Source of the DNA: Chthonomonadales bacterium
GTDB lineage: Bacteria > Armatimonadota > Chthonomonadetes > Chthonomonadales > CAJBBX01
Length of the DNA stretch: 33,274 nucleotides
Reading direction: 5' to 3'
NCBI GenBank assembly: GCA_020849275.1
Contig: JADLGO010000019.1
Location: 1 to 33,274, forward strand
The position numbers were made by a program, and so were the translations under genes. Under the pieces are notes generated by a model. The model did not search any database. It was not told the DNA's origin and was given only the letters and a program-made list of their open reading frames with translations. The stretch's first letter is position 1. Each line of letters opens with the position of its first letter. This document shows, one piece after another, positions 6,167 to 31,784 of the stretch.

Positions 6167-8386
6167 ATGTGGATGGGGCTTACGGTGGCGGTGCTGGCGG
6201 CCGCGGCTGCCGCAGCCGGGACGCCTCTGGCGGTCCCGAACCCGGGCTTCGAGGAGGTGGCCGCCGGCGGCACGATGCCGGCCGGCTGGAGCGGCGGCCC
6301 GATCGGCGGCGCGCGTGGCACGGCGGCTCTCGACGACGGCGTGGCGCGCTCCGGCGGCCGGTCGTTGCGCCTGGCCAACGCCTCGCCGCTGCAGGCGTTC
6401 GTGGCGGTGTCGGTGGCCTCCTCGCCCATCACGGTGCGGTCCGAGACCACCTACGTAGCGCGGTTCTGGGCGCGCGGCCGGGCCGCGAAGGGCTGCTTCT
6501 GCGCGGTCGGGTTCGGCGAGCGGGGCGACCGCCGCCGCCTGTTGCCGGACGGCGACTTCGAGTGGCGCCAGTTCACGAGCCGCTTCACGACGCCGCCCGG
6601 CTGCACGCGGGTCACCATCGGCTTCGCCGCCGACGATGTGACCCGGGGGCTCTGGATCGACGACGTGTCGCTGGAGCGCTCGCCCGTGCAACTGGCCAAC
6701 TTGTCGGCGGTCCGCGAGCCGCTGCCGGCGGGCGGCGTGTGGCCGCGGCCGGCCCGGCCCCTCGCCCGGACGCTCGTCGTGCTGGACTGCTCCAGCGCCA
6801 GCCCGCAGGTGTGCGGCGCGGCCGCCGCGCTCCAGGGCATGGTGAATCGCCGTCAGCCGCGCATCTATCTTCTGAACCCCACGAACCCGCCCGGCCAGGA
6901 CGCCGTGTGGCTGCGGTGGCTCCAGGGGAAGGGCTACACCGGCGCCGAGGAGCGCGTCGCGTCGCTGGAGGCGCTCGTGGCCCGGTTTCGTTCCGAGGTG
7001 CGCGGCGTCGTGGTGACCGACCCGGCGCTGCCAGGCTCCGTGAACGCCGCCTTCATGCTGGCCGGCCTGCGCGCCGCCCTCCCCGCGCCGCCGGGGTTGG
7101 CGGAGCGCCTGAGGCTGCCCGTCGTGGAGGACCTGCGCGGGCGCTGGAAGCGCAACGTGGACGCCTACCGCTACGTCACTGGCCGCTACTGGCCGCGCAT
7201 GAGCCACCGCGTGCTCTCGTGGTCGTATCCGCTGGCGCCCTATCGCGGCGCCCGCGACTACATGGTCGCCTTTAACGTGCCAACGTTCTGGGTTTCCAGC
7301 GAGCGGGACGCGGAGCCCGGCGCCGACCCGGACGCCGAGGAGTCCTACCTGGAGGAGCTCCTGGCGAGGACGCCGCCGAACGTGCCGGTGATGGGCTGGC
7401 CAGCCAACGGCGACTTCCGGGGCGTGCAAGAGTACACGGGCGTGCGCCTGCTCTCGGAGTTCGGCAAGTTCGTGCCGGGCACCGAGTTCTGCTCCAACCT
7501 GACCGTGCACGCGGCGGTGCGCCCGCCGGCGACGGCTCTGCGGCAGCGCCCGCTCGCCGCCGCTGGCCGGCCCACCCTCGACCCCTCGCGGCTCTACCTC
7601 TCGATCAGCATCATGGACAGCGGCGACGCGCTATGGTACTGGCAGTTGCACCAGCGGACCATCTGGGACGACCCGGAGCGGGGCACGGTGCCCATGGGAT
7701 GGTGCATGAACGCGACGCTCGGCCAGATGATGGCGGCCGTGGCGCAGTGGTATGTGGAGCGCGCAACGCCCAACGATCGGTTCTTCGCGGCCGTCTCCGG
7801 TCTGGGGTACATGAACGCGCAGGTCTACGGCTCCCGCTTTCGGCCGTCGGACCGCGAGCGCGCCTGGAAGGAGTATGTGGACCTGACGGCGCGCGCGTGC
7901 CGCGAGCTGGGGCTGAAGGGCCTCTCGGTCTACGACGGCAGCTGGGGGGAGCGGACGCCGCCGCCGGAGGTGCTGGAGCGGTTCGAGAAGGGGATCGACG
8001 GGCTGGACTACATTCTGGCCGACCTGGGACGTCACGACTCGGTGCGGCCGGACGAGGCGGCGCGCATGATCGGGCGCACGGCCGTGTTCCACACGCTCAC
8101 GCGCTATCAGGTGTGGTCGACGACGGCGGAGGTGGCGACGGCGCGCATGGAGCGCGCCAACGCCTGGCTCAGCGGCGAGATCGCGGCCAACGCGCCGAAG
8201 GCCCGGCCGGGCTTCATGAGCGCCATGGCGATCAGCTGGTACTACAGGCCATCCTGGGTGCGCGACCTGGTGCGCCGGCTGGCGCCCGACGTGACGCCCG
8301 TGCTGCCGGACGACCTGGCCCGTCTCTATCGAGAGGCGCGAGCAGCCGGGCGGCCGCCGCGCCGCGGTCAGCGCCCGGCCCTCTGA
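6167..8386 (+). CDS. Secreted GxGYxYP-family putative glycoside hydrolase with N-terminal CBM
   Basis: A 739-residue protein with a short signal peptide (about 1-18). Residues about 22-170 form a carbohydrate-binding beta-sandwich of the CBM4/9 type: 'VPNPGFEE' at the start and 'GLWIDDVSLE' at the end are diagnostic. Next, 'AAALQGMVNRRQPRIYLLNP' is the hallmark of the GxGYxYP N-terminal domain, followed by a large catalytic-like region. The name-giving motif appears as G-L-G-Y-M-N-A at residues 545-551, diverged in its last two positions. Function in this family is predicted, not well established: a glycosidase acting on polysaccharide outside the cytoplasm. It has its own promoter at 6100-6128 and converges on the GH-A-like gene 43 bases away. 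Confidence 0.83.
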   Translation: MWMGLTVAVLAAAAAAAGTPLAVPNPGFEEVAAGGTMPAGWSGGPIGGARGTAALDDGVARSGGRSLRLANASPLQAFVAVSVASSPITVRSETTYVARFWARGRAAKGCFCAVGFGERGDRRRLLPDGDFEWRQFTSRFTTPPGCTRVTIGFAADDVTRGLWIDDVSLERSPVQLANLSAVREPLPAGGVWPRPARPLARTLVVLDCSSASPQVCGAAAALQGMVNRRQPRIYLLNPTNPPGQDAVWLRWLQGKGYTGAEERVASLEALVARFRSEVRGVVVTDPALPGSVNAAFMLAGLRAALPAPPGLAERLRLPVVEDLRGRWKRNVDAYRYVTGRYWPRMSHRVLSWSYPLAPYRGARDYMVAFNVPTFWVSSERDAEPGADPDAEESYLEELLARTPPNVPVMGWPANGDFRGVQEYTGVRLLSEFGKFVPGTEFCSNLTVHAAVRPPATALRQRPLAAAGRPTLDPSRLYLSISIMDSGDALWYWQLHQRTIWDDPERGTVPMGWCMNATLGQMMAAVAQWYVERATPNDRFFAAVSGLGYMNAQVYGSRFRPSDRERAWKEYVDLTARACRELGLKGLSVYDGSWGERTPPPEVLERFEKGIDGLDYILADLGRHDSVRPDEAARMIGRTAVFHTLTRYQVWSTTAEVATARMERANAWLSGEIAANAPKARPGFMSAMAISWYYRPSWVRDLVRRLAPDVTPVLPDDLARLYREARAAGRPPRRGQRPAL

Positions 8387-8429: not shown

Positions 8430-11120
8430 TCAGCGCGTGATCAGGTAGTAGAGCGTGCGCGGGGCCAACCGCAGCGACGGCCCGCGAGACGGGCGCCCGG
8501 CCGGGTAGCCGTTAAGGTCAAGCGGCGTCACCGTGAGTTGCGCGCCGTCGGGGCGGCGCAGTTGCACGGTCCCGCTCAGATCGCGCACGACGATCGGCGC
8601 GGAGCCGATGTCGCGAATCTCGCGCAAGCCGGTGCCCGGCGCCTCCCAGCCGTAGCTCATCTCTTCCGACATCGCCTGAAGCAGCATGCGCCTCGACGTC
8701 GCGATCGGGTGGCCGTCCAGCGCCACGAGCAGGATCGTGCCGTAGGGCAGGCCCGAGCGTACGGTCACGTCGCCCAGCCTCACCTCGCCCGCGCGCGAGA
8801 GGAAGCCGGTGACCCCCTGCGCGCCGGGCGCATCCACGGTGACCCGGCCGGCGCGGTAATCCCATGCGAGCTCCCCGGTGACGCTACGCGCGATGCCGGC
8901 CTTACGGTCGATGTAACGGGATAGGTCCGCCACGCGCGACTGGCCGCCCGAGGCAACGAAGCGCATGCCCACGCGGCCCACCAGGAACGCCAGCGGGTCC
9001 ACGCTCGGCAGGTCGGCCACGGGCGCCGTCTTGCCGGCAGGCAGGTCCCTGGCGCGCAGCTCGTCCAGGTTCATCGGGCCAGACACGGGGGCTCCCTTAA
9101 GCGCGAACAGGTCCGGCAGCGCGAGGGCGACGTCCACCACGGGCGGCGCCTCGCGCACGAGGCCCCTCCGGTAGAGGAAGGCGGTCGCCGGGAACTGGCC
9201 GGCGACGACGGGGGTGCGGATGGAGAACTTGCCGATCATCTCGTCCCAGCCGGGGCGGCCGGCCGCGAAGAAGAAGTAGGCGTCGGTGCCCTGCAGCCGT
9301 CCGTACGCGGCGGCGAGGAGGCCCAGGTCGGCGCGGTACCGGTTGGGCGCAGTCCAGTTGATCTCGGTGATGGTGGAGGGCTTGCCGTCATAGCCCGGGT
9401 CCATGATGGGGAGGCTGAAGCTCGGGGGGTCGCCGGGCTTTTCGGGCGCGAAGAGCAGGGCGCTGGCGTCGTCGTAACGGTCGCCCGGGCTGATCATGTA
9501 GGAGGCGCGCTCGCCCTGGTGCGGCCCGCCGAAGTACCCGTGGTGGTCCATGAAGTCGGCGGCCGTGTTTGACCACTTGTCGAGGGGCCCGAGGAAGCGC
9601 GGGTCGGCCGTGATCCAGTTGGACGCGTAGACCGCGCCGCGAAAGCCCAACTCATGCTTGAGGTACCGATAGGTCTCCCCATAGAAGCCCCTCTGAAGCT
9701 CCGCGAGGAAGGTGGCGGTCTCCTGCGAGCGCAGGTCGCGGTTGTTGAACAGCTCCCAGAGCGGCCGGAAGCCGGCGCGCCCGGCGGCCGCGTCGTCGCC
9801 GCGCACGGGCGTCCCGCCCCACGCCGCGATCGCCCTGTCCACGGATCCGTGGCGCCGGGCAAGCCAGTCGCCGAAGCGTTTCTCGATGACGGCCATCTGG
9901 GGCGCCGGCACGTTCTCGTAGGGCGTGAAGGTCCAGAAGAGGGTGGAGTCCTCGTTCACCATCTCGAGCATGGCAACCGCGGGATCCTGCACGATCGGCT
10001 TGCCGGTGCGCGGGTCGGGAGCGGTGAGCAGGTCGCGCCACCAGCCGCGGTACATCGCCTGAAACGGCTCGCTGAAGTAGGGCAGCGCGAACGGGTGGGA
10101 CCCGCTGTAGCCGGCGAAGCCCTGGTCGGCGCGAAGGTTCATCCAGAGCGGGAAGTAGATCGACAGGCAGGTGTAGATGCCCTGGCGCTTGAGCGCGGCG
10201 ATCATGGCGAACAGGCGGTCACGGTGCTCGGTGTCGACGCGGCGAATGTCGTCCCCCCAGACCGGGCCGTGGATCCGCACCAGGTTGACGCCCAGCTTGG
10301 CCAGCGAGCGCGCCAGGTAGTCGGCGCTCGCGTCGTCCATCCGAAGGGCCTCGCCGCCGATGTTCACCGCCCAGAATCGGATCGGCTGGCCGTCGCCGGA
10401 GCGCACGAAGCCGTCGCCGCGCGCCTGAATGAAGCCGTGCTCCCCCGCGGCGCGCTCGTTCAGCGAGCGCAGATCGATGGGGCTTTCCGCGAAGGGGTCG
10501 GGGTCCGGCTCGAATGGGAACCAGCCCTCGGGCGCGCGGCCGTACTTCTCGCCGGGCCGCAGCTTGCCGCGCGGCGTGACGGGGCCGAGCGTCAGGAGGA
10601 AGGCGTCGAAGCAGGCGGCGCCCGTGTTGCTCGTGAGCTCGACGCGCAGCTTGTGTCGGCCCGTCGTCAGCCGAGCCTGGCCGGCCGACACCCAGTTGGC
10701 CACGACGAACTGGCGAATGGGCGCCTCGTCCAGGAGCACGGTCTCCCCCACCGCGTGCCAGGGGCCATCGTCGATTCGCCAGCGGAAGGGCCCGTGCTGC
10801 CAGAACTTGCGCGCGTAGAGGTGATAGGCTCCCTCGCGCGGCGCGGTGATGGCGTACTCGAGGAAGAGCGCCGAGTCGCGCGGCCCGTCGGCGCCGATCC
10901 ACTTGCCGCCGGAGAGGACGGCCGCCTCGTGGGCGCCTTGCGGGGCGAAGGGGTTGCGGTCGGCGGGCGGGAAGCTCGTGGCAGCCGGCTGCTCCGCCTC
11001 GATCCACACGTAGACCGGGGCCGGAACCGTGGGTCGCGGGGGCGTCTGTGCCCGGCAGCCGAAGGCGAGGCCAGCAAGGAACAGGCCCACAAGGGGCAGC
11101 GAGCGGCGCAAGGGCGGCAT
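8430..11120 (-). CDS. Secreted clan GH-A-like glycoside hydrolase (GH5/GH42-like)
   Basis: An 896-residue protein. The start at 11120 has AGGAGGTG six bases upstream; the open frame runs much further up but lies opposite the second sulfatase gene. The signal peptide ends near C22 ('LAFGC'), so a lipoprotein is possible although the lipobox is imperfect. Residues about 35-190 look like a carbohydrate-binding sandwich ('VYVWIEAEQPAATS'). The TIM barrel follows, with 'LAKLGVNLVRIHGPVW', the acid/base motif 'EMVNED' (E390) and the nucleophile candidate E586 in 'TITEINWT', about 196 residues apart. The C-terminal 250 residues are beta-rich. It probably cleaves a beta-linked plant or algal glycan; exact family and substrate are not resolvable by eye. 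Confidence 0.85.
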   Translation of the reverse strand: MPPLRRSLPLVGLFLAGLAFGCRAQTPPRPTVPAPVYVWIEAEQPAATSFPPADRNPFAPQGAHEAAVLSGGKWIGADGPRDSALFLEYAITAPREGAYHLYARKFWQHGPFRWRIDDGPWHAVGETVLLDEAPIRQFVVANWVSAGQARLTTGRHKLRVELTSNTGAACFDAFLLTLGPVTPRGKLRPGEKYGRAPEGWFPFEPDPDPFAESPIDLRSLNERAAGEHGFIQARGDGFVRSGDGQPIRFWAVNIGGEALRMDDASADYLARSLAKLGVNLVRIHGPVWGDDIRRVDTEHRDRLFAMIAALKRQGIYTCLSIYFPLWMNLRADQGFAGYSGSHPFALPYFSEPFQAMYRGWWRDLLTAPDPRTGKPIVQDPAVAMLEMVNEDSTLFWTFTPYENVPAPQMAVIEKRFGDWLARRHGSVDRAIAAWGGTPVRGDDAAAGRAGFRPLWELFNNRDLRSQETATFLAELQRGFYGETYRYLKHELGFRGAVYASNWITADPRFLGPLDKWSNTAADFMDHHGYFGGPHQGERASYMISPGDRYDDASALLFAPEKPGDPPSFSLPIMDPGYDGKPSTITEINWTAPNRYRADLGLLAAAYGRLQGTDAYFFFAAGRPGWDEMIGKFSIRTPVVAGQFPATAFLYRRGLVREAPPVVDVALALPDLFALKGAPVSGPMNLDELRARDLPAGKTAPVADLPSVDPLAFLVGRVGMRFVASGGQSRVADLSRYIDRKAGIARSVTGELAWDYRAGRVTVDAPGAQGVTGFLSRAGEVRLGDVTVRSGLPYGTILLVALDGHPIATSRRMLLQAMSEEMSYGWEAPGTGLREIRDIGSAPIVVRDLSGTVQLRRPDGAQLTVTPLDLNGYPAGRPSRGPSLRLAPRTLYYLITR

Positions 11121-11357
11121 GCGGGCACCTCCTGCGGGCGACGGAGGCCGGCGAGCCGGCCGCCAAGCCGCCGCGATCACTCGCCTGTTTTCGGCCGCGG
11201 GGCGCGCGATCCTCCTCCATCGGTTGCGCGGCCCGCGCGCGGCGTGACCGCTGCGAGCCGATCGTAAGGGGTAAGACGGGGGTCGGCGTCGAACAGGGAG
11301 GCGTCGGTCCGTGGGGCGTTGTGCGCGCGGGCCAGCGCGGCGCGCGAGGAGGAGCGA
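11121..11357. promoter_or_regulatory. Divergent control region between GH-A-like and sulfatase genes
   Basis: A 237-base gap separates two genes that are read outward, so it must hold both promoters. Both ribosome sites are strong (AGGAGGTG for the hydrolase, GAGGAGGAGC for the sulfatase). I could not pick a convincing -35/-10 pair on either strand; the AT-richest part on the + strand is around 11262-11278. Shared regulation of the two carbohydrate genes is inference from the layout. Confidence 0.35.
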
Positions 11358-27400: not shown

Positions 27401-27765
27401 CGCTGAACGGCCGGTCCCTGGGCGTGCTCTGGAAGGCGCCGTTCCGCGTGGACGTTACCGGGATCGCGCGGCCGGGCGCCAACCGGCTGCAGGTGCGCGT
27501 TACGAACCTCTGGCCCAACCGGCTGATCGGCGATGAGCAGCTTCCGCCCGAGGTGCAATGGAACGGCCCGGCCATCGCGCGCTGGCCGGATTGGCTGGTG
27601 GAGGGGAAGCCGCGGCCGAAGACGGACCGCATCACCTTCACGACCTGGCGCTTCTACACCAAGGACTCGCCGCTGCTGGAGTCCGGGCTGATCGGGCCCG
27701 TCACGCTCTACTCGGCTCTGCCCGTGGCGCTCATGCCGGCGGCGGGAGCGAGGAGCGGCCGATGA
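24445..27765 (+). CDS. Secreted GH106-type alpha-L-rhamnosidase
   Basis: A 1106-residue protein. The start is a GTG at 24445 with GGGGGAGGAT upstream, giving a signal peptide of about 24 residues ('GIALLALAPGGSARA'). The opening 'FRNPPASARPHTWWHWVNGNVSRAGITADLEAMRRAGIGGAQIF' is characteristic of GH106. The catalytic region runs to about residue 600, with 'LLQSGRFAADVCYFAGE' in its second half. The C-terminus (about 930-1080) is a GH2-type sugar-binding sandwich: 'GTATYTTDLEVP' and 'NFAEVTLNGRSLGVLWKAPFRVDVT'. It would release terminal alpha-L-rhamnose from pectin- or algal-type polysaccharides by inversion. Its TGA overlaps the fucosidase ATG, so the two enzymes are produced together. Confidence 0.87.
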   Translation: MRLHRRCLAGIALLALAPGGSARATDLAAGFRNPPASARPHTWWHWVNGNVSRAGITADLEAMRRAGIGGAQIFHVDCGLPAGKVGYMSPEWRDLMAHAVREAARLGIEICVHNCAGWSSSGGPWITPEHAMQILVWTERRATGPGRLPEPLARPQARLGFYRDIAVLAYPTPPSPVPGRAQAVRAKAAFDRADRLEPEVSPTPPGSAVPREEVLDLTARMDAEGRLDWEAPPGDWTILRMGYTPTGKDNHPAPPEGRGLECDKLSREALDAHWDGMMAKVIADVGPLAGKVLNNALIDSYEVGSQNWTPRLRQEFVRRRGYDPLPFLPAVTGALVGSLETTERFLWDFRRTIADLYADNYFGYFGERCHAKGMLFSTEPYGNGPFDNLQSGGTADIPMGEFWVGGGASETAKLAASAAHIHGRRIVGAESFTADDQRGRWLVEPYGIKALGDMIFCNGVNRYIFHRYAHQPWQGLVPGMTMGPWGTHLERTITWWNQASAWLRYVARCQYLLQSGRFAADVCYFAGEGAPNDMPDRGGPNSALPAGYDFDAADTRTLLSATVTRDGALALPAGMRYRVLVLPDSPFMTPTLARKVRDLARAGATVVGPAPRQSPSLSGYPRCDEEVRAIAAEVWGDLDGAARRERTFGKGRVVWGVPLATVLARAVGGPDFAYPAAPGRRLAYIHRIAGDTDLYFVSNQRYRSDVVECSFRAGDRLPELWRPDTGAIEPAPIYRLETGRARVRLRLDPAGSVFVVFRRPAPRDDHLVAVERVGAPSAAAGPRIEIEHAYYEPADGRPGGADVTARVTALVAAGQTEIEATNAMFGDPTPLVVKRLRVEYRLDGKSATRVVGENETLELAGRRDDRAAPAYEVLASARGALLVPWEGGAYTARTASGRSRGVTAPAPRTVPVLGPWTLRFPPGLGAPASARLAALASWTDNADPGIRYFSGTATYTTDLEVPAAAVAPGRRLALDLGRVLNFAEVTLNGRSLGVLWKAPFRVDVTGIARPGANRLQVRVTNLWPNRLIGDEQLPPEVQWNGPAIARWPDWLVEGKPRPKTDRITFTTWRFYTKDSPLLESGLIGPVTLYSALPVALMPAAGARSGR

Positions 27766-29171
27766 GCGCGCCCTATGAGGCGACCTGGGAGTCGCTGACA
27801 CGCTGGCGGACGCCCGCCTGGTACGCCGACGGGCGGTTCGGCATCTTTGTCCACTGGGGGCCCTACTGCGTGCCGGCGTTCGGCAATGAGTGGTATCCGC
27901 GCAACATGTACGCGCAGGGCACCGCCGAGTTCCGCCACCACGTGGAGACCTACGGCCCGCAATCGCGGTTCGGCTACAAGGACTTCCTGCCGCTCTTTCG
28001 CGCCGAGCGGTTCGACCCGGACGCCTGGGTCGATCTGTTCCGGCGGGCCGGAGCGCGCTACGTGGTGCCGGTCGCCGAACACCACGATGGCTTCGCCATG
28101 TACGACTGCAGCTTCTCGCGCTGGAACTCCGTCCAGATGGGCCCGATGCGCGACGTGCTCGGCGAGCTGGCGGCCTCGGTGCGGCGGGCGGGCATGGTGT
28201 TCGGCCTCTCCAGTCACCGCGAGGAGCACTGGTGGTTCATGGGGCGTGGCATGGAGATCGACTCCGACGTGCGCGACCCGCGGTACGCCGACTTCTACGG
28301 CCCGGCCATGCCCTTCGGCGATGACTGGAGCATCCGCGATTGGGTTCCGCGACCGGATGGCCGGTTTCTGGAGGAGTGGCTGGCGCGCACCTGCGAGCTC
28401 GTCGACAAGTACCGTCCTCAGCTCGTCTGGTTCGACGGTTGGATCAACCAGATCGTCTTCCAGCCCTACCTGCAGAGGTTCGCGGCCCACTACTACAACC
28501 GCGGCGCCGAGTGGGGCCTGGAGGTCGCCATCAACTACAAGGGCGATACCTTCCCGGAGGGGGCCGCGGTGCTCGACATCGAGCGCGGACAGCTCGATGG
28601 CATTCGCCCGCTCCTCTGGCAGAACGACACCTCCATCTCGAGGAGCTCGTGGGGTTACGTGCGCGAACAGGACTACAAGGCGGCGGGCGACATCGTGGGC
28701 GACCTGGCCGACGTGGTGAGCAAGAACGGCTGCCTGCTGCTCAACGTGGGCCCGCGCGCCGACGGCACTATCCCCGATCCCGAACGGGAGGTCCTGCTGG
28801 AGGTTGGCCGGTGGCTGGAGGTGAACGGGGAGGCGATCCACGGGTCACGCCCGTGGCACACCTTCGGCGAGGGCCCCACCCAGGTGCCGGGGGGCGCGTT
28901 CACCGACACCAGGCGCGGCGCCTTTACGTCGGCCGACTTCCGCTTTACGACGCGCGACGACGCGATCTACGCCATCTGCCTGTCGGAGCCGCGCGTCGAG
29001 ACGATCATCCGGTCACTCGGCCTGTCGAGCGGGAGCAAGGTGACGGGGGTGCGGATGCTCGGCTCGCCCCAGGAGCTCGCCTGGCGGCAGGAGGAGACGG
29101 CGCTGCGGGTCACGCCGCCCTCCCGCCTTCCCTGCGCCCACGCCTGCGTCTACCGCGTCACGCTCGGGTAG
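27762..29171 (+). CDS. Alpha-L-fucosidase (GH29)
   Basis: A 469-residue protein, normal for GH29. The ATG at 27762 overlaps the rhamnosidase stop (ATGA) and has GAGGAGCGG upstream. 'WYADGRFGIFVHWGPYCVPAFGNEWYPRNMY' and H107-H108-D109-G110 are family hallmarks, and the nucleophile is D225 in 'VWFDGW'. The later 'NGCLLLNVGPRADGTIP' is also typical. It hydrolyses terminal alpha-L-fucose with retention. No signal peptide is seen, so it may act on oligosaccharides taken into the cell, unlike the secreted rhamnosidase before it. Its last 11 codons and stop are duplicated at 31738-31773, right after the SNF2 cassette, with two silent differences. Confidence 0.92.
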   Translation: MSAPYEATWESLTRWRTPAWYADGRFGIFVHWGPYCVPAFGNEWYPRNMYAQGTAEFRHHVETYGPQSRFGYKDFLPLFRAERFDPDAWVDLFRRAGARYVVPVAEHHDGFAMYDCSFSRWNSVQMGPMRDVLGELAASVRRAGMVFGLSSHREEHWWFMGRGMEIDSDVRDPRYADFYGPAMPFGDDWSIRDWVPRPDGRFLEEWLARTCELVDKYRPQLVWFDGWINQIVFQPYLQRFAAHYYNRGAEWGLEVAINYKGDTFPEGAAVLDIERGQLDGIRPLLWQNDTSISRSSWGYVREQDYKAAGDIVGDLADVVSKNGCLLLNVGPRADGTIPDPEREVLLEVGRWLEVNGEAIHGSRPWHTFGEGPTQVPGGAFTDTRRGAFTSADFRFTTRDDAIYAICLSEPRVETIIRSLGLSSGSKVTGVRMLGSPQELAWRQEETALRVTPPSRLPCAHACVYRVTLG

Positions 29172-29182
29172 GCGGGGCGCGC
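29134..29182 (+). repeat. Left direct repeat flanking the two-gene cassette (att-like)
   Basis: This 49-base segment covers the last codons and the stop of the fucosidase gene plus 11 bases beyond. It matches 31736-31784 at 46 of 49 positions, with a 29-base exact core from 29139 (starting CACGCCTGCGTCTACCGCGT). The two coding differences are silent (Ala GCC/GCT, Gly GGG/GGC); the third lies after the stop codon. Confidence 0.9.
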
Positions 29183-29249
29183 CGGGGAGCGGGGCTGCTG
29201 GTAGCGAACGCCCGCCAGCGCACCATCGCGGGCAGGGAGGTGCGGACTT

Positions 29250-29891
29250 ATGCGCCATGCGGAACGGGACTTCCTGTTGGGCTACCTCGCCCATTTCCAG
29301 TCTGCCCAGAGGGCCTTCTACGGAGGCATACTTGTCACGGATGCCCGTGGGGTGCCGAAGGAGTTTCGACACTCGGACGGCATCCGGCCGACGCGTATGC
29401 AGATCACGCTGTACGGCGATAGCCTTGAGGCCAGCATCGGCGCCGACGCCCTCGCGCCGGCCCTCTACGCGGCACTGGCCCTGAAGCCCGACATCCTTCT
29501 GATCGACACGAGCAGCCGCGCGGTGTTCGGCAGTTTCGTGCACGCGCACTCCCCCGCGGCTCTGCTTGTCGCTCTGAACGATCCCGACCTGGCGCTCGCA
29601 GATCGACTCGCGGTCGAGGGGAGTTTACTCGATGCTCGAGACTACGACCTCAAGGGGTCCACGGCCGAGCGGGTCTACGCCTACATCGAGGAGGGGAGCT
29701 CCGAGGAGAGGGGAGCCACGGTGCTGGAGGCGGCCCACAGGACGATGAACCTGGTATCGCCCTTCGACCGTGTGCGTACTGTGCTGGCGGAGATCGCGCA
29801 GGTCGATCCGGGACGGCCACAGGAGCCGCCCAGTGTGCGGCTTCGCACCCAGGCGGAGATCGCCGGCGCTCAGCACGGACGCACCGGGTGA
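29250..29891 (+). CDS. Unknown protein, first gene of the SNF2 cassette
   Basis: A 213-residue protein. The ATG at 29250 has GGGAGG ten bases upstream. The N-terminus 'AERDFLLGYLAHFQSAQRAFYGGILVTDARGVPKEFRHSDG' suggests an alpha-beta fold; 'PALYAALALKPDILLIDTSSRAVFGSF' and 'PAALLVALNDPDLALADRLAVEG' look like buried strands with following helices. The C-terminal 80 residues are helical and charged. I recognise no named domain, membrane segment or catalytic motif. Its stop overlaps the SNF2 GTG start by four bases (GTGA), so equal production and a physical partnership are likely. It may be a specificity or sensor subunit; that is inference. Confidence 0.8.
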   Translation: MRHAERDFLLGYLAHFQSAQRAFYGGILVTDARGVPKEFRHSDGIRPTRMQITLYGDSLEASIGADALAPALYAALALKPDILLIDTSSRAVFGSFVHAHSPAALLVALNDPDLALADRLAVEGSLLDARDYDLKGSTAERVYAYIEEGSSEERGATVLEAAHRTMNLVSPFDRVRTVLAEIAQVDPGRPQEPPSVRLRTQAEIAGAQHGRTG

Positions 29892-31735
29892 GATCCGGGG
29901 CCCGAACCCGCCCGAGCCTGGCGAGCAGACACGGTTGGCGTGCGGCAATCCTGCGCCGCCTGCCGCGAGTCTGGCACGCTGAGCCGTCAGTTCGAGAGCT
30001 TGTGATTCCGCCGGTGTTGCTCCCTCGGGTCGCTGTGCACGATGTCGCGATCCGCTCGGTCATCGCCCCGCCAGTCCTGCAAGCGTTAGCAGCCGTACAG
30101 ATCTTCGAACCCGCCATTACGTGGGCCGTCGCAGTGGAAGCCGTTGATATCGGCGGCTTCCGTTTCTCCGTCCTGGGGATCAGGTATCGCAGTGCGCACA
30201 GCAGACTGGACGAGGTGTCGGAAGGAGATGTGCCGCCCGCTGAACCGGTCACAGGCGAGCCCTCGGGTCATGTCCTTTCATCGAGGGCATTGGCAACCCG
30301 GTCCGACCAGCGGCCGTTGCATCCGGCCAACCCGTACGCGGCGTTGTACGGTCTGCTCTATCCACCCCCCGATGAGTTGGCCGCCGACTTCCTACCTCAG
30401 TACACGGCACTTCGCCCCTACCAGAGAACCGGCGTCGAGTTCCTGATCGCCCGTGAGAGCGCGCTTCTGGCAGACGACATGGGACTCGGAAAGACTGCCC
30501 AGTGCTCGATCGCGCTTGCCGTTCTGCTGAGGAGCGAACGGATACGCCGAGCACTGATCGTCTGCCCTCGGGCTCTCGTTCGTCAGTGGGAGCACGAAGC
30601 GAAGCGCTGGGCCGGCCTCTATGCGCGCCCCATCGTCGGGAACGCGATCGAGAGGCGGTCGATGTGGAACGGGTTCCCTGGGGCGGTGATCGCGACACCG
30701 CACATCGTGCTGAACGATATCGAAACAGTTGCCAGGAATCACTTCGACCTTGTGATATGCGATGACATATCGATGCTGAAGAACGCGGGCAAGATCACCT
30801 CAGCGATCCGGGGGATACCGCGCGAACGCTCGTGGTGCATGAGCGGTACCCCGCTGGAGAACAGACCCGAGGACCTCGCAAACGTGATGGAGTTCGTAAA
30901 GCCAGGGCTCTTCACTGCGGCGGAGCGAGAGCGCGCGCCAACTCGTGAGACACTGCAGAGGCGCGTCGCGCCGCACTTCCTGCGCAGGCGCAAGATCGAC
31001 TGCCTGACGGAGTTGCCCGACAAGCAGAGCTTCGAGCCAACGTCCCTCGAAATGACTGGACGCCAGGCGGAGGCATATCGCCGAGCGGAGGCTCAGGAGT
31101 GGGATGCCCTGCAGCAGCTTGGGGTGAAGGCGACCAAAATGCACGTCTTCGCCCATCTCAACATACTGCTGCAGCTATGCAACTTCCACGAGGCGAGCGG
31201 AGAGAGCGCAAAGGCCGAGGAGGTGGGAGAGCAACTTGACATCCTGTTCGACAGCGGGAGTGAGACGAAGGCCGTCGTATTCAGCATGTCGGTCAAGGCG
31301 CTGGAGTTCCTTAAGAGGAGATGGGGTCGCTATCATCCGCTCCTCTACCACGGAGGCCTTTCGCCCACCGCGAGGTCAGACGTGCTCGACCGCTTTGCGG
31401 CTGACGGTCGACTCCTCTTGATGTCTACGAAAGCAGGGAGCCGTGGGCTCAACCTTCAGCACTGTAGCTATGTCTACCATTTCGACCGAACCTGGAACCC
31501 GATGGATGAGCTTCAAGCTGAGGACCGCTGCTGGCGGATGGGCCAGGCGAGCAATGTGTTCGTATACCGGTTTCTGCAGGTTGGGACCATTGAGGAGCGG
31601 ATCCATGAGGTGCTCACACGCAAGCAGCGTCTGTTCCTTAACTACATCGACTCCATGGCAGAGGACACCGATGCTCTTGCTGAGCGGCACTGGTCGGTCG
31701 AGGAGTTGATCGAGCTGATGCGACCGGCCAGGTGA
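29888..31735 (+). CDS. SNF2-family DNA-dependent ATPase/helicase-like protein
   Basis: A 615-residue protein starting at GTG 29888, which overlaps the preceding stop. The SNF2 core begins near residue 175: 'LRPYQRTGVEFLIARESALLADDMGLGKTAQ' (motif I, K202), motif II D-D-I-S at 292-295 where DEAH-like is usual, motif III S-G-T-P at 319-322, 'HFLRRRKID', motif V 'STKAGSRGLNLQHCSYVYHFDRTWNP' and motif VI Q-A-E-D-R-C-W-R-M-G-Q at 543-553. The fold should move along or remodel DNA using ATP. The first about 150 residues are a hydrophobic, Val/Ala-rich region I do not recognise; a later internal start is possible. No nuclease or methylase domain is fused. Codon use is less GC-biased than in neighbours. 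Confidence 0.88.
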   Translation: MRSGARTRPSLASRHGWRAAILRRLPRVWHAEPSVRELVIPPVLLPRVAVHDVAIRSVIAPPVLQALAAVQIFEPAITWAVAVEAVDIGGFRFSVLGIRYRSAHSRLDEVSEGDVPPAEPVTGEPSGHVLSSRALATRSDQRPLHPANPYAALYGLLYPPPDELAADFLPQYTALRPYQRTGVEFLIARESALLADDMGLGKTAQCSIALAVLLRSERIRRALIVCPRALVRQWEHEAKRWAGLYARPIVGNAIERRSMWNGFPGAVIATPHIVLNDIETVARNHFDLVICDDISMLKNAGKITSAIRGIPRERSWCMSGTPLENRPEDLANVMEFVKPGLFTAAERERAPTRETLQRRVAPHFLRRRKIDCLTELPDKQSFEPTSLEMTGRQAEAYRRAEAQEWDALQQLGVKATKMHVFAHLNILLQLCNFHEASGESAKAEEVGEQLDILFDSGSETKAVVFSMSVKALEFLKRRWGRYHPLLYHGGLSPTARSDVLDRFAADGRLLLMSTKAGSRGLNLQHCSYVYHFDRTWNPMDELQAEDRCWRMGQASNVFVYRFLQVGTIEERIHEVLTRKQRLFLNYIDSMAEDTDALAERHWSVEELIELMRPAR

Positions 31736-31784
31736 GCGCTCACGCCTGCGTCTACCGCGTCACGCTCGGCTAGGCTGGGCGCGC
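31736..31784 (+). repeat. Right direct repeat flanking the two-gene cassette (att-like)
   Basis: This second copy of the fucosidase gene tail starts at the base directly after the SNF2 stop codon. It still encodes A-H-A-C-V-Y-R-V-T-L-G-stop, identical in protein to the end of the real fucosidase, but with no gene body before it. It matches 29134-29182 at 46 of 49 bases. Confidence 0.9.

Follow-up and report, generated by a model that had tools for sequence, protein, structure and literature searches.

We describe a pair of genes in which a 213-residue protein, here called P213, is coupled to an SNF2-type ATPase, found in a 33,274-nt stretch of Chthonomonadales DNA (contig JADLGO010000019.1, positions 1 to 33,274; referred to below as the window). 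The pair is a new family within the libraries searched, and the unit that carries it is an accessory insertion. Our preferred reading, offered tentatively, is that it is a mobile recognition-plus-translocase module, probably acting against invaders, in which P213 would recognise a site and the SNF2 protein would act there.

The gene pair and its insertion site

The features of the locus are as follows.

27762-29171, + strand: alpha-L-fucosidase gene (GH29; PF01120, 1.4e-99), the target gene, duplicated at its 3′ end
29134-29182, + strand: left 49-nt direct repeat, comprising the last fucosidase codons, the stop codon and 11 nt (blastn E 1.4e-17)
29183-29249, + strand: short leader of the inserted unit, 5′ of the P213 gene
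29250-29891, + strand: P213 gene, a 213-aa ORF with an ATG start (ORF list)
29888-29891, + strand: GTGA stop/start overlap of P213 with SNF2, indicating translational coupling (ORF coordinates)
29888-31735, + strand: SNF2 ATPase gene, 615 aa, GTG start (PF00176, 3.7e-31; PF00271, 4.4e-20; alignment; tree)
30473-30496, + strand: SNF2 motif I, DDMGLGKT, intact (alignment)
30761-30772, + strand: SNF2 motif II, DDIS in place of DExx (alignment)
31736-31784, + strand: right 49-nt direct repeat, beginning at the first base after the SNF2 stop codon (blastn E 1.4e-17)

An earlier note on this DNA had proposed a compact two-component module on the basis of the GTGA overlap, a shared atypical composition and the lack of a functional link to the neighbouring sugar genes, and all of these points hold. 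ORF coordinates confirm that the two frames run in the same direction and share the GTGA, and both the pairing with SNF2 and the -4 overlap recur in relatives (see below). Coding periodicity, measured as per-position G+C, is present in each frame as far as the overlap and holds directly from the SNF2 GTG. The G+C content of the module is 0.632, compared with 0.720 +/- 0.016 (minimum 0.679) for 267 equal-sized segments elsewhere in the window, which places the two genes ~9 points below their surroundings. The flanking genes code for a GH106 rhamnosidase, the alpha-L-fucosidase and a BNR/sortilin-like protein, to which the module is unrelated. As the note also stated, genes for a methylase, a nuclease or a phospholipase are missing beside the pair in the window. 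No defence gene adjoins it there.

The two copies of the 49-nt repeat are identical at 46/49 positions and bracket the pair exactly. The repeat scores 37 against a maximum of 13 after shuffling, and its 29-nt core occurs in the 4.8-Mb genome only in the two flanking copies. A scan of 20 loci for such repeats yielded a second clear case, L064, which belongs to another family. At L064 the pair lies 3′ of a 5S rRNA gene (7821-7937, Rfam), and the last 73 nt of the 5S region are repeated at 10899-10971, where the copy supplies the SNF2 stop codon; ~104 nt occupy the place that matches the 29183-29249 leader of the window. L065, from a congener, retains a decayed copy. In a further congener, G276, the site is empty, with only 183 nt between the 5S gene and the downstream gene and with neither the module nor a second piece of 5S; this genome also aligns with the L064 right flank. 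Taken together, the 49-nt repeat of the window, the 73-nt 5S copy at L064 and the empty site in its congener establish the P213-SNF2 unit as an accessory insertion. Apart from those of L064 and L065, and from a repeat of 26 nt at L062, flanking repeats at the other scanned loci were not convincing.

The unit resembles integrative elements that occupy the 3′ ends of tRNA, rRNA or protein genes in having a duplicated 3′ end, a target gene that remains whole and, for L064, an empty site in a relative. It differs from them in its size, 2.6-3.0 kb, and in carrying no recombinase gene of its own; between the repeats of the window and of L064 there is neither a recombinase nor any third gene.

P213 is predicted to adopt a degenerate RNase H-like fold

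Direct domain look-up gave no match for P213 in Pfam, NCBIfam, PADLOC or PDB sequences. Two AlphaFold models, resting on six sequences and covering the window P213 and a Fimbriimonas homologue, have low confidence (pLDDT 58 and 64). The leading Foldseek matches were endonuclease V, UvrC and PIWI for one model, and Argonaute and endonuclease V for the other. With a second aligner, endonuclease V, UvrC, PIWI, Med13 and NurA made up nearly all of the top 50 for both models, with 122-168 residues aligned at Z scores of 6-8 and never above 8. A profile comparison (hhalign) between P213 and same-phylum endonuclease V ran near end-to-end at P=0.003-0.004, with a probability of only 8-10%; the best of 26 unrelated comparisons reached 0.016, and the two controls with reversed profiles stood at 0.23 and 0.32.

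P213 resembles the endonuclease V (PF04493)/PIWI/UvrC-C branch in predicted strand and helix order, in length, in the near end-to-end profile alignment and in its top structural matches, but differs from endonuclease V in lacking a Pfam match (PF04493 was absent from the window P213 and 23 family members in a Pfam scan), a conserved strand-1 acid and the catalytic triad. In alignment A3 and in the hhalign register, no P213 subfamily has a conserved acid at the position of the strand-1 catalytic Asp of endonuclease V, D43 in T. maritima numbering. The residues that are conserved in P213 (P36, E38, P80, P171 and R174) are not those of the triad. Since the strand-1 Asp has no conserved counterpart, nuclease activity of P213 appears unlikely.

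No single test is decisive, but the models, structure searches and profile comparison combined make an endonuclease V/UvrC/PIWI-type RNase H fold the likely one. Given the low model confidence and Z scores of at most 8, the match could instead reflect a common arrangement; the fold and its inactivity are moderately supported. The earlier note's remark that the first protein matches no domain stands as far as every family library searched is concerned, and is modified by the predicted endonuclease V/PIWI RNase H-type fold with its first-strand Asp lost.

The SNF2 partner

The second ORF has the SNF2_N and Helicase_C domains of an SNF2 family ATPase (Pfam SNF2-rel_dom, 3.7e-31; Helicase_C, 4.4e-20), and motifs I and VI are present. 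Motif II reads DD[IV]x in 7/7 members of the clade to which the window protein belongs, and DExx in the others where it is readable; apart from this clade-wide DD change the motifs are intact. Alongside it, motif VI of the same clade has changed from HRxGQ to WR/YRxGQ. The N-terminal ~150 aa are proline-rich and show little conservation.

The best PADLOC scores of the SNF2 core were to the SNF2 proteins of DISARM (DrmD), Zorya (ZorD) and Dpd (DpdE), and the nearest NCBIfam families include a pilus-expression regulator, far under its cut-off. The core alone matched 400 phage records, all at <60% identity, and these matches reflect generic SNF2 similarity.

Distribution and conserved pairing

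A search of public genomes with the single P213 sequence returned nothing, and alignment A4 was too diverse to use; a tighter alignment, A5, gave matches. With the family profile, P213 was found in 42/291 Armatimonadota genomes and in 7/386 genomes surrounding a Nostoc-labelled contig. The module's named relatives come from Chthonomonas, Fimbriimonas and Chthonomonadales MAGs, and they correspond to genomes of the same phylum as the window. Relatives of the window P213 were absent from the phage, plasmid and IMG/VR viral-contig collections.

Neighbourhoods of up to 19 kb were read around most P213 loci. An SNF2 gene lies directly downstream at 23 of the loci that P213 retrieved, and the gap between the two genes is exactly -4 nt in 9/21 scored loci, so the conserved pairing for which the note had proposed a neighbourhood check is present. 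The P213 homologues share 44-59% identity and invariant residues, with partner and overlap likewise shared between separate families. Pair-only loci comprise the window, L013, L014, L015, L064, L065, L076-L078, L081, L082 and L086. In the SNF2 tree the window's pair-only clade (seven rows, support 100/100) is separate from a clade of five-gene loci (13 rows, 100/99), and two genomes, G002 and G023, each contain both forms. Occurrence is patchy within genera: in g7 the module is present in G006 and G011 and missing from G009, and in g8 it is present in G007 and missing from G010.

The note had held that homologues of the first gene occurring mainly without SNF2 would count against its proposal. 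This applies in part: SNF2 is absent beside P213 in 18/42 Armatimonadota genomes and at all Vampirovibrio-like loci read. These P213 proteins form separate subfamilies. They occur in two Armatimonadota lineages and in Vampirovibrio-like genomes (the latter identified by gene content), in fixed, housekeeping-like contexts that are often flagellar or linked to sigma factors. The standalone gene lies 5′ of one coding for a 270-310 aa protein and often 3′ of a sigma-factor gene, and in the two Armatimonadota lineages P213, this partner and a DUF2802/DUF6115-like protein form a conserved set.

In the Vampirovibrio-like loci L100, L101, L102 and L104, P213 without SNF2 stands directly behind a sigma-factor gene, and at L079 it stands behind flhA-flhF-sigma; in most of these five loci a ~280-aa protein is encoded 3′ of P213. 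The sigma-linked standalone proteins possibly represent an unrecognised flagellar or sigma-linked family. We also considered whether the 270-310 aa partner gave rise to the N-terminus of SNF2, both being proline-rich and poorly conserved, and rejected this as alignments gave no convincing match.

A five-gene form with BrxD-like ATPases

At ~13 loci P213 and SNF2 follow, in this order, a ~260-aa protein and two BrxD-like ATPases, which match PF10923 and the PADLOC models for BrxD and SngB. This five-gene cluster is undescribed. Examples are found at L083:3454-8893, L055:5016-10550 and L053:5410-11270, with about ten further loci; the P213 is a variant, the two BrxD-like ATPases differ from one another and the genes often overlap. 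Neither the ~260-aa protein nor the five-gene type of P213 was found in plasmids.

At L062 a 26-nt repeat, with three copies (190-215, 2960-2985 and 11102-11127) that are the only ones in that genome, brackets the five-gene cluster together with the preceding gene; given the third copy nearby, it may be an unrelated repeat. At L057:3410-5276 several small gene pairs resembling toxin-antitoxin systems (Phd/PIN and RelB/RelE-like, by eye) lie between a BrxD-like gene and P213.

Relation to known defence systems

The P213-SNF2 module is not DISARM, Zorya, Dpd, Shango or BREX, because the defining partners are absent and the curated cut-offs are unmet. Its SNF2 core is like those of DISARM, Zorya and Dpd, but it scores 88 of the 610 bits of the NCBIfam cut-off for DrmD, 116 of 1500 for the ZorD equivalog and 43 of 500 for DpdE, and its neighbours include no DrmA/DrmB or methylase, no ZorA/ZorB and none of the Dpd partner genes. 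Shango consists of TerB, a BrxD-like ATPase and a helicase (PMC10250203), and for the BrxD-BrxHI dyad of type 2 BREX it has been proposed that BrxD loads the SF2 helicase (PMC12839542). The five-gene relatives of P213 likewise join BrxD-like ATPases to an SF2 motor; the P213 unit differs from Shango in having no TerB and an SNF2-type motor, and from type 2 BREX in lacking the PglX/PglZ/BrxC core, with only two genes between the repeats of the window. PF10923 or BrxC/D genes are absent from the whole genome to which the window belongs.

A parallel is provided by bacterial PIWI-RE operons, which consist of an REase, a DinG helicase and a PIWI protein, and in which PIWI-branch proteins, some of them inactive, stand beside helicases as predicted recognition modules (PMC3702460). 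The P213 pair resembles these in that a PIWI-branch protein, often inactive and in the case of P213 predicted, shares a tight operon with an SF2 helicase; it has SNF2 in place of DinG and no REase, and P213 corresponds only to the RNase H-like part, a MID domain not being seen. Hachiman HamAB (PMC12278908) has a similar two-protein layout of a sensor helicase and a partner, but there the partner is an active effector nuclease, whereas P213 is apparently inactive, and the helicase family differs.

Strong defence neighbours adjoin the module at 4 of ~24 SNF2-type loci. These are a type I-C CRISPR Cas3 at L056 and BrxA at L078 (both loci assigned by reading the sequences), a type IIG RM gene with PLD-SNF2 at L077, and a type II/orphan methylase at L083. 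Control P213 loci without SNF2 gave 1-2 PADLOC hits (SspH and mad8). Defence neighbours therefore exist, but with hits in the control as well they establish neither the defence role envisaged in the earlier note nor the enrichment that it proposed to check. By eye, toxin-antitoxin-like pairs also lie inside or beside L014, L057, L060 and L086.

A proposed mechanism and its alternatives

In the mechanism that we propose, the pair is an accessory, horizontally mobile two-gene unit that entered at the fucosidase 3′ end and duplicated 49 nt of it. P213, taken to belong to the endonuclease V/UvrC-C/PIWI branch of the RNase H fold and to be catalytically degenerate, would most likely bind a nucleic-acid feature (an end, bulge, modified base, guide or hybrid) or a DNA-bound protein, and would hand the bound site to the translationally coupled SNF2 protein, positioning or gating the translocase. 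The latter would move on double-stranded DNA, its ATPase perhaps slowed by the change of Walker B from DExx to DDxx, and would block or strip invader DNA or the proteins bound to it. In related genomes BrxD-like (ORC/Cdc6-type) ATPases could load the pair. Recognition by P213 and gating of SNF2 are proposed on the precedents of pPIWI-RE with DinG (PMC3702460) and of loading by BrxD (PMC12839542). Of the purposes that such an accessory insertion might serve, an anti-invader role seems the likeliest; both this role and the order of the steps are put forward tentatively. A more far-reaching version, in which a nuclease-dead endonuclease V/PIWI-like recognition subunit and SNF2 form a minimal self-contained mobile immune module that restricts without a nuclease and, lacking a recombinase, is spread as a 2.6-3 kb unit duplicating the 3′ end of its target gene, we regard as doubtful.

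The pair might alternatively be a cellular regulator or repair factor, with P213 as a scaffold that couples SNF2 to transcription, chromosome or repair machinery in a RapA-like manner and insertion as no more than its mode of acquisition. The sigma-factor and flhA-flhF-sigma neighbours of P213 without SNF2 (L100-L102, L104 and L079) fit such a role, as do the conserved set with the 270-310 aa partner and DUF2802/DUF6115-like protein in two Armatimonadota lineages and the pilus-expression regulator among the NCBIfam families closest to the SNF2 core, albeit far below cut-off. The SNF2-bearing subfamilies, however, have a patchy distribution within genera, a low G+C content in the window and insertion sites that are empty in relatives, and several of their loci lie beside restriction, CRISPR or toxin-antitoxin-like genes, so that we consider this explanation rather unlikely. 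Distinctly unlikely, in our view, is a reduced BrxD/SNF2 defence system, in which the five-gene cluster would be the working form and pair-only loci its remnants or specialised offshoots. The recurrence of all five genes in order at ~13 loci and the matches of their ATPases to PF10923 and PADLOC BrxD/SngB speak for a working cluster, but the pair-only and five-gene clades separate with full support and long branches, which points to the pair as an old, self-standing form; in addition, the SNF2 motifs are intact save for the clade-wide DD change, and G002 and G023 carry both forms.

Still less probable is that the two genes are decaying cargo left by a larger integrative element, the repeats being its attachment sites and the integrase and remainder having been lost. 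The repeats are arranged as in islands at tRNA/rRNA 3′ ends and no recombinase lies between them; yet the same minimal gene content, bounded on the right by a repeat that starts at the SNF2 stop, is seen in two unrelated insertions, both frames are intact and codon-structured, and the pairing persists over long branches. That P213 is a stray ORF beside an ordinary SNF2 gene, as its lack of a database family might suggest, can be dismissed in view of homologues at 44-59% identity that share invariant residues, partner and overlap across separate families.

If the proposed recognition-plus-translocase module is correct, an inactive member of the endonuclease V/PIWI branch would serve as the partner of an SNF2 motor, a combination absent from the libraries searched, and would do so in Armatimonadota, a phylum whose immunity has hardly been studied. 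Standalone P213 in sigma-factor and flagellar loci, the SNF2 pair and the five-gene form with BrxD-like ATPases would then form an evolutionary series, and the repeat-bounded unit offers a means to test how a two-gene cargo moves without a recombinase.

Two further observations concern individual sites. At L086 the contig bearing the P213-SNF2 pair is 4.2 kb long, has low coverage and is filed under Nostoc sp. CHAB 5824. To one side of the pair lie (by eye) the end of a glutamate synthase and a VapC-like gene, to the other an excisionase-like gene, and this contig may be Armatimonadota contamination. In family f45 the position immediately 3′ of the 5S rRNA gene (L064:7821-10971; L138; L137) is an insertion hotspot: it holds P213-SNF2 in G281 and G282, is empty in G276 and, in G280, is occupied by what appear by eye to be a nucleotidyltransferase gene and the beginning of one that is HEPN-like.
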